Below are positions 46,175 through 60,334 of a DNA stretch of 64,000 nucleotides, in pieces. Positions within the stretch are counted from its first letter, which is position 1, and every line of letters starts with the position of its first letter. Origin of the DNA: Branchiostoma floridae. Lineage: Eukaryota > Chordata > Leptocardii > Amphioxiformes > Branchiostomatidae. The DNA lies in the NCBI RefSeq assembly GCF_000003815.2, contig NC_049985.1:1391410-1455409 (forward strand), read 5' to 3'. The position numbers were made by a program, and so were the translations under genes. A model generated the notes under the pieces. The model was not told the origin of the DNA. It did not search any database and saw only the letters and a program-made list of their open reading frames with translations.

Positions 46175-49100
46175 TTAGGCAAAGACATAGAACACAACTA
46201 ACATGAACGCGACTACAAAAGGGCTACGCGATGGCCCTCCATTGCTACCTGACCTGACCCCGAGGTTATGGACATGCTTTCCCATCAGCCTCGGCGTGTA
46301 CGTAGCCGTATTGACTTCTTACGGTAGATCTCAAAGAAAACGGTATAGTAAAGCCGCGATGCGTTATATCAGCCTAAAAATGGTTCCCCGTTCTTGGAAG
46401 GGGTTGATAAGTCACGAGGAACTATTTTTGAAAGCTAGACCGCAGTTAGAAGTCATGTAATTACGCCTGAAAGTTGACCAATTTTCAGGGTTTCAGTGGT
46501 GCGTTTCGCTATTGTTTTCGGGACGAGTTACGCACTGCATGGGGTTTTCCGATATACCGGGTTATAGGATAAGGATCAACTGCTTCCGGGTCAACAATAC
46601 TTATAGTGTAGTGTTGTTGCACTATCACCTGGCAGTAACTTTAACACATTTAATGGATTACTGTACTCTTGAGGTTGTTTTTACATACCATACTACAATG
46701 TAGAGGCTTTTCGTTATGGGGGAGGTTTATACGGAATACGGATAGACCGGTGCCATACTACAGGTTTGTAAAAAAAGTGACAGCCTGTACCAATGTCGAA
46801 GCTTTCCCGGCTATCAAGGCAAGTTTATACGGATGGAACAGAGACTTTCTACAATAAAGATTAGCACAGTTCTTGTCCTGTCGAGATTTTACGTTACTAA
46901 GGGAGTTGTATTCAGATACAAATGTGCCATACTACAGGTGTGTCCAAAAAAATTGACACAGTTGTGTCAATGCCCAAGATTTGCGTTCTTAAGAGAGGTT
47001 TGTATGGATCAAACAGAGACTTTTTACATGTGTATCATATAGAATGACACTGTTCTTGTCCTGTTAAGATTTTACGTTATAAAGGGAGCTTTTATTCGGA
47101 TAGAACAGTGCCATACTACAGGTGTGTCAAAACAAATTGACACAGTTGCGCCAATGCCGAAGATTTCCGTTCTTAAGAGAGAAAGTTTGTACGAATGAAA
47201 CAGAGACTTTCTACATGTGTATCATATAGAATGACACTGTTCTTGTCCTGTTGAGATTTTACGTTGTTGAGGGAGGTTTATTCGGATATAATGTCATACT
47301 ACAGGTGTGTCAAAACAAATTGACACAGTTGCGCCAATGCTGAAGATTTGCGTTCTTAAAGGAGGTTGTTACGGATGAAACAGAGACTATTCACATGTGT
47401 ATCATATAGAATGACACTGTTCTTGTCCTGTTGAGATTTTACGTTATTAAGGGAGGTTTATGCGGATGGAACAGTGCCATACTAGAGGTGTGTCAAAAAA
47501 TTGACACAGTTGTGCCAATGCCAAAGATTTCCGTTCTTAGGGAAGGTTGTTACGGATGAAACAGAGACTATCTACATGTGTATCATATAGAATGACACTG
47601 TTTTTGTCCTGTTGAGATTTTACGTTATTGAGGGCGGTTTATTCGGATATAAATTCCATACTACAGGTGTGTCAAAATAAATTGACACAGTTGCGCCAAT
47701 ACTGAATATTTGCGTTCTTAAACTTTAAGAACGCAAATCTTCAGCATTGGCGCAACTCCGGAAGGTTGTTACGGATCAAACAGAAATTTTCTTCATGTGT
47801 ATCATATACAATGACACTGTTCTTGTCCTGTTGAGATTTTACGTTATTAAGGGAGGTTTATGCGGATAGAACAGTGCCATACTAGAGATGTGTCAAAAAA
47901 TTGACACAGTTGTGCCAATGCCAAAGATTTCCGTTCTTAGAGAAGGTTGTTACGGATGAAACAGACACTTTCTACATGTGTATCATATAGACTTACACTG
48001 TTCTTGTCCTGTTGAGATTTTACGTTATTAAGGGAGGTTAATGTGGATAGAACGGTGCCAAACTACTTTTGTGTCAAAAAATTTACAATTTTCATTCTAT
48101 ATGATACAACATGTAGAATGTTCCATCCGTATAAACCTCCCATAAGAACGGAAATCTCTGGCATTGGCACAACTGTGTCAATTTTTTTGACACATATGTA
48201 GTTTGGCATTGTTTTATCCGCATATACTTCCCTTACTAACGTGAAATCTCAACAGGACAACAACAGTGTCATTCTACACTGTACACATGTAGAAAGTGTC
48301 TGTTTCAGCCGTAACAACCTCCTTTAATAACGCAAATCTTCAGCAATGGCGCAACTGTGTCAATTTTTTTGACACACCTGTAGTATGGCATTTATATCCG
48401 AATAAACCTCCCTCAATAACGTAAAATATCAACAGGACAAAAACAGTGTCATTCTATATGATAGACATGTAGAAAGTCTCTGTTTAATCAGTACAAAGCT
48501 CTCTTAAGAACGGAAATCTACGGCATTGGCGCAACTGTGTCAATTTTTTTGACACACCTGTTGTATGGTACTGTTCTATCCAAATAAAACTCCCGTAATA
48601 ACGTAAAACCTCAACAGGACAAGAACAGTGTCATTCTATATGATACACATGTAGAAGGTCTCTGTTTCATCCCTACAAAGCTGTCTTAAGATTGGAAATC
48701 GTCGGTATTGGCGCAACTGTGTCAATTTGCTTTGACACACCTGTAGTATGGCACTGTTCTATCCGAATAAACCTCCCTTTACAACGGTAAAATCCTAATA
48801 GAACAAGAAGTGTCATTCTGTAAGATACACATGTAGAAGTTCTCTGTTTCATCCGTACAAAGCTCTCTTAAGTTAGGAAATCGTCGGCATTGGCGCAACT
48901 GTGTCAATTTGTTTTGACACACCTGTAGTATGGCACCGTTCTATCCGAATAAAACTCCCGTAATAACGTAAAATCTCAACAGGACAAGAACAGTGTCATT
49001 CTATATGATACACATGTAGAAAGTCTCTGTTTCATCCGTACAATGCTCTCTTTAGATTGCAAATCGTCGGCATTGGCGCAACTGTGTCAATTTGATTTGA

Positions 49101-50659
49101 CACACTTGAGTATGACACTGTTTTGTCCGAATAAAACTCCCTTTATAACGTAAAATCTTAATAGGGCAAGAACAGTGTCATTCTTTATGATACACATGTA
49201 GAAAGTTTCATCCGTATAAACCTCCTTTCAGAACGCAAATGTTTTGCATTCGCACAACTGTGTCAATTATTTGATACACCTATATATGGCACTGTGCTAT
49301 CCGCATAAACCTCCATTAATAACGTAAAATCTCAACAGGACAAAAACAGTGTCATTCTATTTAATAAACATGTAGAAGGTCTCTGTTTTATCCGTACAAA
49401 CCTGTCTTAAGAGCGGAAATCTTCGGCATTGGCGCAACTGTGTCAAATTGTTTTGACACACCTGTAGTATGGCACTGTTCTATCCAAATAAAATTCCTGT
49501 AATAACGTAAAACCTCAACATTACAAGAACAGTGTCATTCTATATGATACACATGTAGAAAGTCTCTGTTTCATCCGTACAAAGCTCTCTTAAGATTGGA
49601 AATCGTCGGCATTGGCGCAACTGTGTCAATTTGTTTTGACACACTTGAGTATGGCACTGTTCATCCGAAAGAAAACTCTCTTTATAACGTAAAATCTTAA
49701 TAGGACAAGGACAGTGTCATTCTGTAAGATACACATGTAGAAAGTCTCTGTTTCATCCGTACAAAGCTCTCTTAAGATTGGAAATCGTCGGCATTGGCAC
49801 AACTGTGTCAATTTTTTTGGACACAACTCACGGTAGTATGGCACATTTGTATCTGAATACACCTCCCTTAGTAACGTAAAATCTCGACAGGACAAGAACT
49901 GTATGTACTAATCTTTATTGTAGAAAGTCTCTGTTCCATCCGTATAAACTTGCCTTGATAGCCGGGAAAGCTTCGACATTGGCACAGGCTGTCACTTTTT
50001 TTTACCGACACCTGTAGTAATTGGCACTCAGGTCTATCCGTATTCCGTATAAACCTCCCTCGTAACGAAAAGCCTCTACATTGTAGTCTGGTATGTAAAA
50101 ACAACCTCAAGAGTACAGTAATCCATTAAATGTGTTAAATTTACTGCCATATCACCGACTTAGGTGATCATATGTGCAACAACAATACACTATTAGTATG
50201 GTTGACCCGGAAGCAGTTGATCCTTGTCCTATAACCCGGTATATCGGAAAACCCCATGCAGTGCGTAACTCGTCCCGAAAACAATAGCGAAACGCACCAC
50301 TGAAACCCTGAAAATTGGTCAACTTTCAGGCGTAATTACATGACTTCTAACTGCGGTCTAGCTTTCAAAAATAGTTCCTCGTGATTTATCAACCCCTTCC
50401 AAGAACGGGGAACCATTTTTTAGGCTGATATAACGCATCGCGGCTTTACTATACCGTTTTCTTTGAGATCTACCGTAAGAAGTCAATACGGCTACGTACA
50501 GGCACCTCCTCGTTCCAAAACTGCATCCGGGACTCCCGCAGTCTGACGTCAGCAGATGACGTCACGTCCAGCCGGAGGTACTCTTGGGATGAAGAAGTGT
50601 AACGTGGCCAGTGGTCCAAGTCACGCATGCGCGCTGCTCCTGTTGAGTCATTGGGGTCT
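46175..50659 (-). pseudogene. Remnant H: last exon of an esterase gene, split by a foldback element
   Basis: The minus strand carries an exon 10 in two pieces: 50504-50659 (from the acceptor to FWNEEVP) and 46175-46295 (RLMGKHVHN to the stop). Counted once across the GGC duplication they total 277 nt, in frame, without stops. The tail FVVAFMLVVFYVFA is a GPI-type hydrophobic end unlike the other genes. Exons 1-9 are absent; only about 900 bp separate this exon from the ENPP relic to the right. It is thus the leftover of a further gene copy, or, less likely, an alternative last exon of gene I. With the 4.2-kb insert it cannot encode the normal C-terminus. Confidence 0.85.
46296..50500. mobile_element. 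4.2-kb foldback element with internal tandem repeats
   Basis: Ends TGTACGTAGCCGTATTGACT and the exact inverted copy, flanked by GGC on both sides (46293-46295, 50501-50503). Terminal inverted repeats of roughly 600 bp are nearly identical. Between them an array of units of about 185-190 bp (ACATGTGTATCATATAGAAT, TTGACACAGTTGCGCCAATG) runs in one direction to about 48080 and in the opposite direction afterwards, about seven and ten units. Each unit includes a small palindrome TGTGTCAAN(4-7)TTGACACA. A secondary inversion lies at about 47690-47757. No coding frame, so non-autonomous. High identity of the arms indicates a recent origin or continuing exchange between arms. Confidence 0.9.
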
Positions 50660-52273: not shown

Positions 52274-55200
52274 TCAAAGTTCATCCGACCCGGCGGTTCG
52301 AACCTCCCTTCCCATCAGCCTCGGCACCTCCTCGTTCCAAAACTTCATCCGGGACTCCCGCAGCCTGACGTCAGCAGATGACGTCACGTCCAGCCGGAGG
52401 TACTCTTGGGATGAAGAAGTGTAACGTGGCCAGTGCACCATGTCACGCATGCGCACCGCTCCCGCAGAGTCATTGGGGTCTCTGTAAAAAAGAAGGAGAG
52501 AGAAAGACAGATATACAGAAACAGAGAGTGTGAGTGACAGAGGAATAGAGAGAGAATCAGAAGATTGGTATCTCTTTGCATTGAAGAGACCAGAGTATTA
52601 TATCAGTTGTAGATCTAGAACTGTTATTTCTAAGAAATACGTTAGAATGTACTCACTGCAGCATATAAGATAGGCTCACTTACCCGTTAGTGGCGAAGTT
52701 GACCCAGTACGCCATCATGTCCAGACTCAGGTCCCTCTCCTCCTGGGTGAAGCTGTACTTCCAGGAGTTGCCGGTGACGTCACGCAGGAGCGGGATGCCG
52801 AACATGAAGAACACGTCATCACCGTGGTCAACCTTTACGTACCTACAGGTAGAAACAGTATAGGAGTAAAACTTTTTTTTTTATATCTAAGACGTCTGAA
52901 GCGATTTTTTATCTTCTTCCTGTTACTTCTACCCTGGGAAGAAGAATCCATTGTGACCCCGATGGCATCCCTGATGTTCACGTTCAAGGTTTTACCCTGG
53001 GTGACCAAAGACGGTGCGCCTAGGACATGCTAGCAATGCCCCGGTGCACGCATGCGCGCTTGAACTTAACACCCTCCTCACTAGCTGACCCTTGCTTCAC
53101 AGAGTCTGGAGAAGGCCAGCTGGATAATGGGGATAGGTTACTTCATGTCATGCAAGAGAATCTCGTAAAATGATCATGTGTATAGCCCAAGTAAGTGTGT
53201 GCCTTTTTGTTTTAGTTAATATGGATATAAAAACGCACTACGTTCTTAAAAAAGTACCCCGTAGAGAGGCCTCCAGGAAGGATACCGAAGTACATACATA
53301 TGAAATCACTTGTTAGTGGAAATATCAATATAACAATTTCCGAGCAAACGTTTACGTACGGCGGGCGGTAAGAGAAGACCGACGCGCTGTGCTGCAGCTC
53401 GTACTGGTACACTCGACTGGAGGCTGCGTAGAGAAGCAATTCAACGTTAATCCAAGAAACAAAAGGGGACCGAGTACCGAACCATGACGTACACGTGCGC
53501 CAACATAACTCCAATCTAAATATTGTCCATCGATTACAACTCTTAGCTCTCTACTAGAGAGATAACTGTAGAACCAATCTGAGATTGGACCATTACCCCG
53601 TTTCATCCGCTCATAAGTTTTCACAGATATTAAGGTCCAGGTCCGCACCTGAGCCAGAATTTTCTGTACTGGTACCCACCCCTACCTGGCATACCTGCCT
53701 GTGCCTGCGCCATCATGACTGTCGGTGCGGTGAACCACGCGTCCGTCAGGAGTTGGAGGAACTGGTCACGTCGGTAGATCGGATCGTCCGCCATGGCGGG
53801 GTCCAGGTACTGGTCTATCACAGGCTGGAGAATTCTGGCGACACTGCCGTCCTGAAGGATAATAGAGAAGAAGGACTATACAAAAGTCTCGATCATGGTC
53901 AATACTATTGTAGCCTGAAAGTCCATCGAAGAATTATTGAATTGCAAATGTATTGTATTTCTTATCATTTCTGATAATGTGTGTAGTTACTAGGTACTAC
54001 GTACATATTTCTTCGCAATTGTGCCACTGAACTGTCGGCTATGGTACATAGAATAAATGAATCGCTAAGTAGGAATTATATTCCCCTTACCGGGTACTGG
54101 CCAGCAACTTGGTGCAGTTCAAACGGCAGGACAGTTTCCAACTCCGACCTCGTCATCCCATCTTCATCAACGTATTTCAAATGGTGTCTTTCTGAAAGGG
54201 AGAACCCGAACTCGTCGTTGTTGGTGCCTAGAAGGTAGTCCACCTCTTTGACCTGCTTCTTGTGCATCAGGTCCTACATTTCATAGAAAAAAAACACACT
54301 AAACTGACATGTGTATTATGGCTCTCGAGTCCTCTGGTTTTCTTTGACCACTTGTTTTACACGAGTAGAGAACTGGCAGAAGATTAGCTGCGGACGGTCT
54401 TTGGCATTTTGAATTTCTTTCAAAATACGTCAGGCATTGTCTCGATCATGGTTAATACTACTATAGCCGAACGCGATGTCACATTGATCTCAAATTTCGC
54501 CATCAATGATCTACATTATCAGTTTCAGTATGTATGTCATGGGTGAACGGCCGTAAGGTCGTCATGCACATGCAGTCGTCATAGTTACCATCAGAGGGAT
54601 GTCATTCCGGAAACGCTATCGACAGCATGAACAGATACAACACAATCATTGCCAAAGTCACAACAGATGTTCTTATCCATTAACAGAATCATAATCGACA
54701 CGTCATGATATCTGTATCTATATATAGCAAGTATAACCGCCGTTCGGCGTAACACACCAGCTCCGCAGGCACGCGGCGCGGTAGCAGCTGGTTATATTAC
54801 ACTGAAAGACCCGTCACACCTTACACATCTATCTGCAAGCGTTCTTTGAAACTACCCAGATGCCCCTACTGTGCTTGGTGATAACAAATTCCCCTGTACG
54901 ATAGTTCTAGATGTGGTAAGTTGTGATCTTTAAAAGATCCGTGACGAACCATTCTTACCCAAGGACTTTGTAAGAGGAACCTGCCGTCGATGACCACTGA
55001 CGGAATCATCAGCGTCAAGAGGTCCTCACTCGGAAGCCTGTCAGGAGCAAACGATATTTCTAAACCATTATATCAGGTTGGAAAATTGCTACATAACAAG
55101 GTTGTTTACTGATAACCAGGAACTATCAATATACAATAAACAGACAAAGCTTAAGTTTCTGTGACTGTTTGTCACCTTACTCAGGGCAATGCTGATTGGT

Positions 55201-58200
55201 CATAATCCATACTGCAGCTAGGTGTCGCTGTCAACAATGCGGTCTCAAACGTCAAGTATTACCCTATATGCGGCCCCTTAAGCTAAGGGAACAACCCGCC
55301 GTACGTGCAAATACGTGCTGTGTACGTGCCACAACGTGGGCAATCTTTTGGGATCCGTACGTGGTAAGTACCGCCTCCGTACGAACTCGAAGGGAATTCG
55401 ACGGATTTTGGAGCACGCAGACACGCCGTAGAACTTTACGTGCATGCAAAACTTTGTGTGCGGATTCGCCCCCCGTACGTGCCAGTACGGGCGACGCGCC
55501 TGCCCTGTACAGCCTGAACGTTTTCAGAAATACGTGGCGGACGTGGCCTACCAAAATAACGTACGGACAAATTGCAGGTACGGCGGGTTGTGCCCTTAGC
55601 TTAACGTAAAGCATTGTCGCATACAAGGATACCTGTTATCGTATACACAAACTTAGATATTGTCCACTGCAATTACTAAAGAAGTTACACAATTATTAGT
55701 CACTTCTTAAGAATGTGGTCCCAGCCGTGTCTGAATCTATATTATCCCTTCAGCATTGTTCATGACTGGAATAGATTTTCATTGTACATACATGTAGATC
55801 CTGGTTGTGAATACAAAAACTTCCTTTCCCAATAATTCTTAACACCCGTGTTAACAAAATGCAAGAACAAACATAGCCCTTTTTGACACACTACAGCGCA
55901 AGCAAAAATATATCCTGTAAAGCCCATCTGTAGTCTTGACAAACTCTTCGAGTCTATTTCGTTGCAATTACTCTGATATAAAAATTTACACTGTGACAGA
56001 AAATTTAGCTTCCAAGTCAAGTATTATTCAAGATCTGGATCAACGTTCAACGTTGAAGTGTAATTTTTAACACAAAGAATTGACATCCTCAAATTTTCGA
56101 CTAATCATTGGCGGCATGGCCAAATAAGTACATGAGCAATCCTCTAATGATTTTGTGACGTCACGTTATGCACATAGAGCATGTGACTTGTCGAGCAGTG
56201 AATCATAAGTTTCAGAGAGTCTGTAGTGCCCCCCGTCTCTGTTGAGAATGACATCTAGCAGCGCAGATGAACCTTCAGTTATCATTTGTTCATGATGTAC
56301 AGAATTGTACATACCCCCTCAGACAACTCATCATGTCATCGTAGGAGTCCGTGCTGCAGTTCAAGCTGACAGCGAGGTTTTGTGTTTGTGTGATGTCGCC
56401 TTTCTGTGCGACTGGAACTCCCGCCACGCCGCTCTGAGAGATGGCCCGGTGGAACAGTCCCGTTGCCATGGAAGACATGACGAGCAGGGAGACAGAGTAG
56501 CCTCCAGCTGACTCTCCAAATATGGTGACTCTGTCGGGATCTCCTCCGAAGTTCCGGATGTTCGCCTGAACCCACTCGAGGGCCTTTATCTTCATGTATT
56601 ATAGGACATATCATTCATAATCAAAGTCAGTCGTACAATATAGTGGATGCTGTCTGGTAAAATATGAATACAATAAGTAAATAGTGAACAAAGAAATTAT
56701 TAGAGTTTAGCTTGAATGTTCATCTGTGTTGGTAGAAGTCATTATCAAACTAGTTAAACTCTGTAATATCCAACACCAAAATTGGACTCACCCAAATTTT
56801 CGACTGAACACCATAAGTCTCTGTCAAGGAATGAACAATCCACTACTGTCGTGACGTCACGTTATGCAGATAGAACACGTGACTCAGTAAGCAGTGGATC
56901 ATACGTTGCAGGAAGTCTATGGGGTTCAGTCGAAAATCCGGGTGAGTCCAATTTTTGTGTTGGAAATTACAGTTTAACTAGTTTAATAATCATTAAAGCT
57001 GGCAGACACATGAGAGGGGGAGAGAAATGGGGAGAGAGAGGTAGAGACAGAAAGACAGGCACACAAATAGATAGGAATTCAAGCAAGCCAAACAATGCTT
57101 TTATTGGGAGAAAATAATCTAACCGCATCCAGAAGCCCAAAGTTGCCGGGTGCGTCATCGTCCCGGGTCGGCAGGAAGCCCAGGTTACCCAGCCGGTAGT
57201 TGATGGTTACCATGACGACGTTATGGAGTGACGTGGGGATCTCAGCTGGGTAGGTTGTACCACTGCCACCCATCCAACCTCCACCAGGGATCCACACCAT
57301 CACCTGAAACAAACGGGACATACATACATCCATTGTAGTTCCACATAGATACGAATGGGTGGTCGCATAGCGTCATATGGTGGCATGAAATAAGCAAGGT
57401 CGAAACAATAAGAAAAGTCATGAAGCTAAAAGTACTTTGCAAAAAATCCAGTTTCCCTTGCCAATATAAACTTCAGTTGTAACAATTCTAATGGACATCA
57501 GGGCATACTTTTATCATTGTATTAAAGGTAAAGATATCTCACAGGCAGGTTTGCAGTAGCGGATACGTCTGGAGTGTACACGTTCAGGAACAGGCAGTCC
57601 TCGCTGATGGCGATACCGCCGGATCCCATGACCTCGATGTGGATCGGACCAGGCAGGGGAAACTCGTACTGTGGACATCTGGAGCCGAACTCTGTGACGT
57701 CACGGATACCTGTCCAGCGGCTCGGGTCCTGGGGAGGGCGCCACCTAGCGGTGGCAAGAGGAACGTACAACAGAAAACCCTAGGCCTTTTGTACGTCTTT
57801 TAAACACTGCGCGATGTCACTCTCACAGTAAATTCAACAGATCATTTATTTATTGCCCTCGCCAAGAAGGTTATGTTTTCGACGCCGTGACTTTTATAGT
57901 TTGGACAATAGAGAAGATGTTCAGATGGTATGATTTATGCAGTAGTATTATTGCGGACCTTTACTTTCAAAATCAATAAGAAATATTTATGTTACGACAC
58001 TCGAAAAGGTTATTGTTATCATTTGGCAACGTCATGAGGTCGTGAAGTTCATCGATTCGTGTTGGTGCTCTTCGCTGCGTATTGATATGCTTATTTATTT
58101 ATTCATTTATTTATTAGGATTCTCCATATATGGAGGGTATGTTCTTTCCTTCCTCCACCTAGCACCCACCTGAGGTGCCCCACAGGCGGAGCGGCGTAAG

Positions 58201-60334
58201 GAATCCCCTTGAAGGTGAAGACGCGGTCAAAGACGGCATTTCCGACAACAGAGGAGGTCAGGAACTCTGAACCTCTCACGTCGCCATGAGTGGTGGAGAC
58301 GACAACGGCATCTGGAAAGTTGTGTACCCATATAACGTTACATATGCATCGTTAACTTTTCTCGTCAAAAAGAATAGCCAGTGAGTAGTCAGTGAGTACC
58401 ATCCTGGCTCAATCCTTTTGCTTGCTAACCACGGCAAGTGAAAGTATTGAACCAGAGGTCACTACGGAGGATGGTACTCACTGACTACTCAGGCTATCCT
58501 TTTTGACGAGAAAAGATAACGATGTAACGTTACAAAATGGCTACTAAAAGGACGCTCAAAGCTGTAGAATGTCCAGTTTATCACCACCAGATTATGTTTC
58601 CCGCGTAACGGTAGCATGCCCGTAGCCAGGGGGGGTTCGGGGGGTTCGGAAGAACCCCCCCACACGCTCAAAGGTCCGCTTTTTCACACTCAAAGGTCCA
58701 CTTTTTCACACCCAAAGGTCCACTATTTCTTGTCCAAGATTTTTTTTCAAAGACATGACTGATTTGCATTTTTCACTGATCGACATTTCATTCAATCTTA
58801 GTGATTCTATCAGCAAAATTTGCCCTAGAAAGTGCAGGAAATGGCTTTACAGAGGGTCCAGATTTCAAAATTTACCTGGACCTCCATTGCGATATCTCGC
58901 ACCATTGGTGTCGGACTTGGTGAAAATATTTCGGGGGAGTCGGCCTCAAAGACTTATGCCAAAAGCCTTCTGTATTTTAATAGAAATCCCATTACAGTAA
59001 ACTTAGCCAGTGAATTTTGCCCGTCAAAATGCAGGAAATGGCGTGTTAGAGGGTCAAGATTTCAATTTTTTCCGGGGGAGCATGCCCCCGAACCCCCCTA
59101 GGAAGCTCACGCCTTCGGCGTGAGTCTCGCGCCTGCGGCGCTCGATGGTCCCATAAATACTATAAAGAACCCCCCCAACCAAAATCCTGGCTACGGGCAT
59201 GGGTAGGAGCTTTGAAATGCCCTTTTTTTGGCTTTACGCCATGATGCCACCTATTACACGGATGACATCTCATAGAATACCAAAATTAATTTCAATGTCA
59301 AAGAAGAAAATCTGAAACAACCAAACTACAGAGTCTATTGTTCTATATAGAACTATTACTATATAGCATCAAGGGTCATGAATATTTTTAGAAAGTCAGT
59401 TCCACAGCAATCTGCTAGGTGGGTTCGAGCATACACATACAGTATTCCCTCGTCATATCTGTCACTTATAGATCAACACGGCAGCACACACAAAGGATGC
59501 AAAACCAGGACGTCCTGTTGCAGTACCCAGGTGAACCACCAGAGGACCCCAAAACACATTAAAATTACAGGGTTCACAACACCCATGAACCAAATGTCCT
59601 CGCAATCCATCTAGGGGTTCTGAAAGACCCCGGTTTCTTATCCTGGACCCAGCAGTTGACCCCCACCCCCACCGGACTACATAAACAACCTAGTCTGTCT
59701 GGTAGCCAGAAACAATGGTGGGAACAAATGATCACAGATTAGCGTAAGATTCAAATATTTGTCTGTACTCATTTCAGACCATATAGAATGACCCAGATAA
59801 TCGGAAGAGTGTTACAAAGTCCAAAATGGTTCAGTCATACAGTTTGAGTTACCTCCTCGCATGATCAAGACAATGCTATCTGTAAATTTCAGTCTTCGTA
59901 AAATACTAATAAACCTTGTTCAAATTTCAACTTACATTACTAAATCAGCCCTGTCAAAGTTCATTAGTATCAACGTGTCTACTGGTATCTAAATTTCCAA
60001 CTTGAAAATGTCTAGTTCATAGCTGAATCGGCCTTGTTTGGCCCAGGTCCAATTCAAACCGGGGCCCGACCGGGATGTTTAAGGAAACGAAAAATTTACC
60101 AAGGAATATCATTACGCTCATGACTAATTTTGTTTACGTTCTCTTTGTTTTGTTGCCTTTTTTTATCATATTACTCGTTTCCGAAAGGTACCCGACCGGA
60201 CCCCGGATTGGGAATTGAGACCTAAGCCTTAGTTTTGTGTGTATGAAAATTGCCTCACCTGATTTACGCGGAAGAACCAGCAGAATCACCACCGTACAGA
60301 CGACAAACGGACGGAGACCCCGAGCGCCGGCCAT
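52274..60334 (-). CDS. Gene I: type-B carboxylesterase-like protein ending in SDEL, with an extra intron
   Basis: Exons: 60259-60334, 58170-58311, 57543-57744, 57124-57303, 56315-56589, 54959-55037, 54091-54273, 53686-53851, 53360-53423 with 52684-52842, and 52274-52481; 577 codons without a stop. Exon 9 is split by a new intron, yet its parts total 223 nt, the array standard. Exon 8 is 15 nt short (loss of AVAWE before ASSRVYQ). Ser about 227 (GESAGGYSVS), Glu about 339 (NNDEFG), His about 462 (DHGDD). The oxyanion motif is PGGGW instead of HGGGW. The signal peptide is present. After MGREVRTAG the chain ends SDEL with no hydrophobic tail, so a soluble, possibly ER-retained product is expected, as in vertebrate carboxylesterases that end in HXEL. 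All splice sites are GT-AG. Confidence 0.9.
52843..53350. mobile_element. 508-bp insertion acting as a new intron in exon 9 of gene I
   Basis: TTTACGTAC is duplicated on either side (52834-52842 and 53351-53359). On the coding strand one copy gives the donor (GCC, then GTACGT) and the element end gives the acceptor (TTTCTACCTGTAG), so splicing 52843-53359 restores the pre-insertion sequence exactly. A pyrimidine-rich run precedes the acceptor. No terminal inverted repeats or coding frame are recognised, so the type of element is unknown. No other paralogue has an intron here. Confidence 0.85.
53630..53685. mobile_element. hAT-like terminal fragment forming the exon 8 donor of gene I
   Basis: On the coding strand the intron begins GTAGGGGTGGGTACCAGTAC, matching the TAGGGGTGGGTACCGGTAC end of the element at 9469-9899. 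AGGTCCAGGTCCG further in also matches. Only one end remains, about 55 bp. Confidence 0.7.
54708..54905 (+). repeat. Interspersed repeat family 1, long copy
   Basis: ATCTGTATCTATATATAGCA through CAGCAGCTGGTTATATTACA to GTGCTTGGTGATAACAAATT, in intron 6 of gene I, the same intron as the copy in gene B. Confidence 0.65.
55278..55604. mobile_element. 327-bp MITE with TTAA borders
   Basis: TTAAGCTAAGGGAACAACCC at the left, and the inverted GGGTTGTGCCCTTAGCTTAA at the right. Uninterrupted copy of the outer element at 9309-10063, in reverse orientation. Rich in TACGTGC motifs. TTAA borders suggest a piggyBac-like origin. Intron 5 of gene I. Confidence 0.8.
56070..56240. mobile_element. MITE of the AATTGGACTCACC family, copy 2
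   Basis: Diverged copy (TGACGTCACGTTATGCACAT, GAGCAGTGAATCATAAGTTT), intron 5 of gene I. Confidence 0.5.
56740..57000. mobile_element. MITE of the AATTGGACTCACC family, copy 3, both ends preserved
   Basis: Palindromic ends: CAACACCAAAATTGGACTCA on the left, TGAGTCCAATTTTTGTGTTG on the right, with homology extending outward (CAAACTAGTTAAACT). Intron 4 of gene I. Confidence 0.75.
58345..58525. repeat. Hairpin-forming inverted repeat in intron 1 of gene I
   Basis: CTTTTCTCGTCAAAAAGAAT and CAGTGAGTAGTCAGTGAGTA are mirrored by ACTCACTGACTACTCAGGCT and TTTTTGACGAGAAAAG. Arms about 55 bp around a loop of about 60 bp. Starts only about 35 bp from exon 2. Confidence 0.8.
58616..59200. mobile_element. 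585-bp inverted-repeat element in intron 1 of gene I
   Basis: Starts ATGCCCGTAGCCAGG and ends CCTGGCTACGGGCAT. Inside, AAGGTCCACTTTTTCACA recurs, a block GTCCAGATTTCAAAATTT is repeated diverged near 59045, and CTCACGCCTTCGGCGTGAG is a perfect hairpin. No complete coding frame. Confidence 0.8.
59201..60019. other. Intron 1 of gene I, remaining part
   Basis: No exon or repeat recognised. Confidence 0.4.
60020..60237. mobile_element. MITE of the GCTTAGGTCACATTT family, copy 2
   Basis: AAACCGGGGCCCGACCGGG on the left, CCCGGATTGGGAATTGAGAC with CTAAGCCTTA on the right; diverged ends. Stops about 20 bp before the exon 1 donor of gene I. Confidence 0.7.

Follow-up and report, generated by a model that had tools for sequence, protein, structure and literature searches.

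The DNA analysed here, referred to as the window, is a 64,000-nt stretch of the Branchiostoma floridae genome (NCBI RefSeq assembly GCF_000003815.2, contig NC_049985.1, positions 1,391,410 to 1,455,409 of the forward strand). It contains gene I, a carboxylesterase gene on the minus strand and one of 15 neighbouring esterase genes that form an array. Exon 9 of gene I is divided by a 508-bp insert at 52843-53350 (window positions), which lies between perfect 9-bp direct repeats: the sequence TTTACGTAC is present at both 52834-52842 and 53351-53359. A preliminary description of this DNA had read the insert as an insertion with its own target duplication that became an exactly spliced intron. The features at the site are:

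52843..53350, minus strand: 508-bp insert; a nested 3′ fragment of a long interspersed nuclear element (LINE) is the one part for which further copies were found
52834..52842, unstranded: downstream copy of the duplication, which falls within Tyr-Val-Lys codons and reads GTACGTAAA on the coding strand
53351..53359, unstranded: upstream copy of the 9-bp duplication, source of the candidate 5′ splice site GTACGT
52843..53359, minus strand: candidate new intron, 517 nt, GT-AG, splicing predicted
52938..52991, plus strand, antisense to gene I: nested 3′ end (54 bp) of a non-long-terminal-repeat retrotransposon, between TACCCTGGG repeats at 52930-52938 and 52993-53001
53360..53423, minus strand: exon 9a of gene I, 64 nt
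52684..52842, minus strand: exon 9b of gene I, 159 nt, holding the histidine of the DHGDD motif

On the coding (minus) strand, the sequence across the boundaries of the insert is CCGCCCGCC / GTACGTAAACG...CTACCTGTAG / GTACGTAAAGG, with the boundaries at the slashes. The duplication is perhaps longer than 9 bp, with AACCTTTACGTAC and AACGTTTACGTAC identical at 12 of 13 positions. Repeat identity (9/9, or 12/13) is the sole handle for dating the insert. In the peptide encoded by exon 9, the insertion point falls in codon 21; the DHGDD histidine, which we take to be catalytic, is residue 27. Excision of 53359-52843 (517 nt) as a GT-AG intron gives an exon of 64 + 159 = 223 nt with an open frame. 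The coordinates, the 508-bp size, the 9-bp duplication and this in-frame restoration, all claimed in the preliminary description, were exact when the sequence was read again, and the repeats at these positions bear out its claim of an insertion with target duplication.

We compared the junction repeat with those of established introns in the array, using the 96 for which both donor and acceptor could be placed. Their longest in-register junction repeat was 6 nt. Repeats of at least 5 nt were found in 9 of the 96 and repeats of at least 7 nt in none, and the seven 6-nt cases were all in the intron after exon 2. Random GT..AG pairs had an in-register repeat of at least 9 nt in 39 of 300,000 draws. 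Given the limit of 6 nt in established introns and the rarity of 9 nt in random pairs, the repeat in gene I is not due to chance. The locus thus holds a genuine insertion that is specific to one lineage, duplicated its target and fits GT-AG exactly, and it is a probable intron gain.

Among the 15 array genes, gene I alone was split at this site and the 14 others were unbroken there. For the sister genes B, C, D, E, F and G, an unbroken exon 9 had been claimed earlier and was confirmed. A genome search with the exon 9 peptide gave 84 matches at E up to 1 (108 of 108 candidates scored). Two of them were the halves of gene I and two were the halves of a C5 gene; the 80 others crossed the insertion site, as judged from the match table (30 loci were also inspected as DNA, and the weakest rows are poor matches). 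These 80 started at or before query residue 18 and ended at residue 73 or 74. Because each spans the site within about 240 bases, they have no intron there. Weak, distant matches on C16 and C13 cross the site too, and the C16 exon seems to start a few codons upstream of it. At this codon both repeat copies in gene I read TAC, as do several of the more distant array genes, against TAT in the near sisters A, B, C, E and F.

In the C5 paralog (L041 4083-4702; C5:25072082-25072701), this exon is likewise split, by a phase-0 intron at VDHSDE/VF that lies 28 nt downstream of the gene I site. The C5 intron is partly filled with multicopy repeats, matches to which stop short of both ends of the 616 nt searched. 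Because it lies 28 nt further on and in phase 0, it is not the gene I intron, and a shared intron was rejected. It is an independent change within the same exon.

An intron in this exon of the C5 paralog is what might be expected if gene I had kept an old intron that was lost from every other copy. We regard such a history as very improbable. The position and the phase of the C5 intron differ from those in gene I, and when 616 nt of the 620-nt C5 intron were used as query, the gene I insert was not among the matches listed (best 40 of 2685 candidates). All 80 of the other peptide matches run through the site unbroken, and none of the 96 established introns has a perfect repeat as long as 9 bp. 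From the comparison of paralogs, a gain rather than a loss is well supported within this genome: with 14 of 15 array genes and 80 of 80 other matches unbroken, the polarity assumed in the preliminary description held.

The nested 54-bp LINE 3′ end was the one repeated part of the insert. It had at least 39 other matches at 85-93% identity (best 40 of 64 candidates). Several other copies carry the close of a reading frame (...EWRRRIHCDP) and then a short tail, some with CAAGGTT units. We assigned the piece to a LINE 3′ end because a copy of the family with a long open frame encodes a reverse transcriptase (RVT_1). With its own 9-bp repeats, the piece fits what would be a separate, 5′-truncated LINE insertion. 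Subtracting the piece and one repeat copy leaves about 445 bp that are otherwise unmatched. A local origin of the insert was rejected, as matches elsewhere in the window were limited to 14 exact bases, or 20 with mismatches. Rfam gave no match with E up to 1 across 52600-53500, and no donor locus or repeat family was found in genome searches with the whole insert and its non-LINE parts.

The insert might have come from a non-autonomous transposon with a single recognisable copy, either introner-like or Mutator-like; such a source concerns the origin of the DNA and is compatible with splicing. Mutator-like elements make a 9-bp target duplication, which fits the repeats seen here. Introners, for their part, may draw their donor from the duplication (PMC9860276). 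We nevertheless consider a transposon source unlikely. No second copy was found in genome searches with the whole insert, both parts outside the LINE piece or the right-hand 100 bases, in a search that skips simple and very common words, so that a lack of matches does not prove rarity. Nor did the insert have terminal inverted repeats beyond chance (score 16, reached in 287 of 1000 shuffles), as a cut-and-paste DNA transposon would. No significant Pfam match was found for 8 of 17 stop-to-stop pieces overlapping the insert (best, UQCC3 at E 0.13). The preliminary description had likened the insert to introner elements; this was not upheld, as the matches listed in the genome search for further copies of 52843-53350 were to the LINE piece, and membership in an introner family, which is multicopy, was rejected. 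With no second copy found, no inverted ends beyond chance and no significant Pfam or Rfam match, the insert cannot be counted as an introner; its likeness is to the neointrons of the repair type known from Daphnia and Drosophila.

The predicted product of gene I is a type-B carboxylesterase with a full COesterase domain (PF00135, residues 28-554, E 1.1e-137) with GESAGG and DHGDD motifs. The remaining exons of the gene are:

60259..60334, minus strand: probable exon 1, with the signal peptide MAGARGLRPFVVCTVVILLVLPRKS; coordinates derived by hand
58170..58311, minus strand: exon 2
57543..57744, minus strand: exon 3
57124..57303, minus strand: exon 4
56315..56589, minus strand: exon 5, with the GESAGG motif and an unusually poor acceptor
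54959..55037, minus strand: exon 6
54091..54273, minus strand: exon 7
53695..53851, minus strand: exon 8
52274..52481, minus strand: exon 10, ending in -GREVRTAGSDEL and a stop

Other observations were made in and near the gene. Intron 4 contains a repeat with inverted ends at 56741-56990, which by eye shares short motifs with the C5 paralog intron. The intron-4 acceptor (56590-56620, minus strand) reads ATACATGAAG, without a pyrimidine tract, and eight aligned sisters differ from it. At the exon 8 donor, gene I has CAG/GTATGC; of seven other array genes, six have CAG/GCATGC (a GC donor) and one has CAGTCATGC. A lone exon 10 with a pyrimidine-rich acceptor lies downstream of gene I on the same strand (50500-50658, minus) and ends in EEVP/GTACGTAG; it is either what remains of a gene or a last exon that gene I uses as an alternative. 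Elsewhere in the window, 247-nt inverted repeats (98% complementary) at 46376-50420 surround about 3.4 kb of roughly 182-bp tandem repeats, and the arms seem to extend beyond the reported ends. Inverted and tandem repeats together may form one composite mobile element.

The splice signals of the candidate intron are present but poor, like those of novel Drosophila introns (PMC2809761). Splice sites of ordinary strength, which would support an intron gain without defining it, were not found, and several points weigh against efficient removal of the insert. The U1 duplex of the donor GCC/GTACGT (-3.1; the score is independent of training and uses an assumed U1 sequence) is weaker than that of all 95 array donors outside gene I (median -8.0, weakest -4.3). 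The position weights come from homologous sites within a single array and are biased towards sites like these. By this measure the donor ranked above 3 of the 95, and of the 4195 GT on the minus strand of the window 21% scored as well. Seven exon-8 donors without GT were excluded from this set and the first GT within 6 nt in phase was taken; the acceptor set was made likewise. The candidate acceptor scored above only 5 of 105 array acceptors (6 of 105 in another scoring). It is better than 97% of the 3786 AG on the minus strand of the window.

Competing sites are present as well. Two acceptors inside the insert, with exon starts at 52933 and 52996, score 9.0 and 6.95, against 4.54 for the proposed one; when joined to the 53359 donor, these two and the acceptors with exon starts at 53105 and 53119 all lead to stops. 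The downstream repeat copy, TAG/GTACGT at 52842, is a much stronger donor (U1 -7.9) and lies exactly at the proposed acceptor. Joined to the proposed acceptor, donors 53404 and 53383 would each keep the frame but shorten the protein in exon 9, and donor 53257 would keep the frame and lengthen the protein. Donor 53404 outscores the proposed donor by position weights (3.24 vs 1.93), while both 53404 and 53383 pair with U1 less well than it does (-1.7 and -2.8 vs -3.1). Retention of the insert leads to a stop inside it.

These weaknesses fit a plain loss of function, in which a redundant gene I was recently disrupted, perhaps in one allele given how polymorphic the species is, and GT-AG fits by coincidence. 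The donor is the weakest in the comparison and two internal acceptors are better. The acceptors of exons 5 and 7 score under all 105 array acceptors, which could indicate that gene I is decaying. By a rough reckoning (an estimate, not computed), an insertion with a 9-bp duplication would fit GT-AG exactly a few per cent of the time, and amphioxus heterozygosity is 3.2-4.2% (PMC12862219). On the other side, gene I has no stop or frame break in 537 aligned codons, its omega is about 0.35 (purifying), its protein has a signal peptide at the start, -SDEL at the end and the catalytic motifs, and the candidate acceptor beats 97% of the AG on its strand. Apart from the weak acceptors, the gene looks functional by its sequence. 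The value of omega is an average since the split from the sisters and may predate the insertion, and coding integrity cannot exclude a very recent loss of the gene. We hold disruption of gene I to be a real possibility, to be kept in mind alongside intron gain. That the candidate intron is truly spliced seems to us somewhat probable, as a matter of judgement rather than computation.

One bolder reading, to which we give a probability of about 35%, is that of a chordate intron in its first stage. It would be a one-off repair insertion rather than part of a mobile family, with a cryptic donor supplied by the protein's own Tyr-Val codons. Splicing would still be weak, with nonsense-mediated decay and the fourteen sister genes as a shield, and the insert would already carry a LINE tail and possibly be polymorphic. 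In our preferred reading, which we consider somewhat probable, about 445 bp of DNA entered exon 9 in the lineage of gene I and duplicated a target of 9 (perhaps 13) bp. It most likely arrived when a staggered break was repaired, or else as an element without other recognisable copies. The 54-bp LINE tail with its own 9-bp repeats lies inside the insert, having come in before or after the insertion into the exon. The duplicated target, coding Tyr-Val and containing GTACGT, offers a latent 5′ splice site, and the insert itself ends in a pyrimidine-rich 3′ splice site; with these, the spliceosome could take out 517 nt in the ordinary way and leave the original mRNA exactly. If the insert were retained, there would be a stop within it and the DHGDD histidine would be lost, so mis-spliced transcripts would probably be cleared by nonsense-mediated decay. 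The sequence itself establishes the insertion, its polarity within this genome and the exact frame; splicing, decay and the repair route are inferences.

Transposon insertion and break repair are among seven proposed routes of intron gain, and the same review warns that 26% of conserved Drosophila introns also have repeats of at least 5 bp (PMC3443670). By analogy, the insertion in gene I appears most like the break-repair kind. In Daphnia pulex, neointrons with direct repeats at opposite ends were ascribed to the repair of staggered breaks (PMC4202315). As there, where 33 repeats of 4-12 bp were reported, gene I has a recent exon insertion with the adjacent exon bases repeated at the opposite end, one copy being exonic (9 bp, or 12/13), and internal repeats from secondary events (55 of 90 in Daphnia). 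The Daphnia study had 90 cases and compared population samples with outgroups, whereas gene I is one case in one assembly, with splicing predicted from sequence and with sister gene copies, not alleles, as the empty site. The novel introns of Drosophila (PMC2809761) share with it weak splice sites, more stops on retention and a mostly unknown source, and a few (6 further examples) have repeats of at least 8 bp at their splice sites; they number 307 in nine species, as opposed to a single predicted case here.

For introners, a 3′ splice site from the insert and a 5′ splice site from the duplication is one described arrangement, but they form multicopy families, unlike the gene I insert (PMC9860276); the word Branchiostoma is not in the main text of that paper. 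The closest chordate cases are introns 3 and 5 of slc26a2 in notothenioid fish (PMC12357937), which are likewise recent exon insertions with direct repeats and GT-AG at the repeat, and of which intron 3 was enlarged later by a second element. They stem from a multicopy element with 4-nt repeats and inverted ends, whereas gene I has 9-bp repeats, no inverted ends, no second copy, and a LINE tail as the second element. The preliminary description of an unusually clean example in an animal was overstated, since cases in Daphnia, Drosophila and notothenioid fish have been published (PMC4202315, PMC2809761, PMC12357937). Distinctive here is the number of tandem sisters without the insert. Among the titles listed for the open-licence literature on intron gain or carboxylesterase clusters in amphioxus or Branchiostoma, none was on this locus, which does not make it undescribed. 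To our knowledge, well-documented young chordate introns with the empty site at hand are few.

If the insert in gene I is not spliced, it would be no more than an insertion that disrupts a gene, and would caution that a GT-AG fit that is perfect by eye is no proof. If it is spliced, the early steps of intron birth, that is, weak splicing, decay of failed transcripts and later strengthening, would be measurable against fourteen neighbouring genes without the insert.
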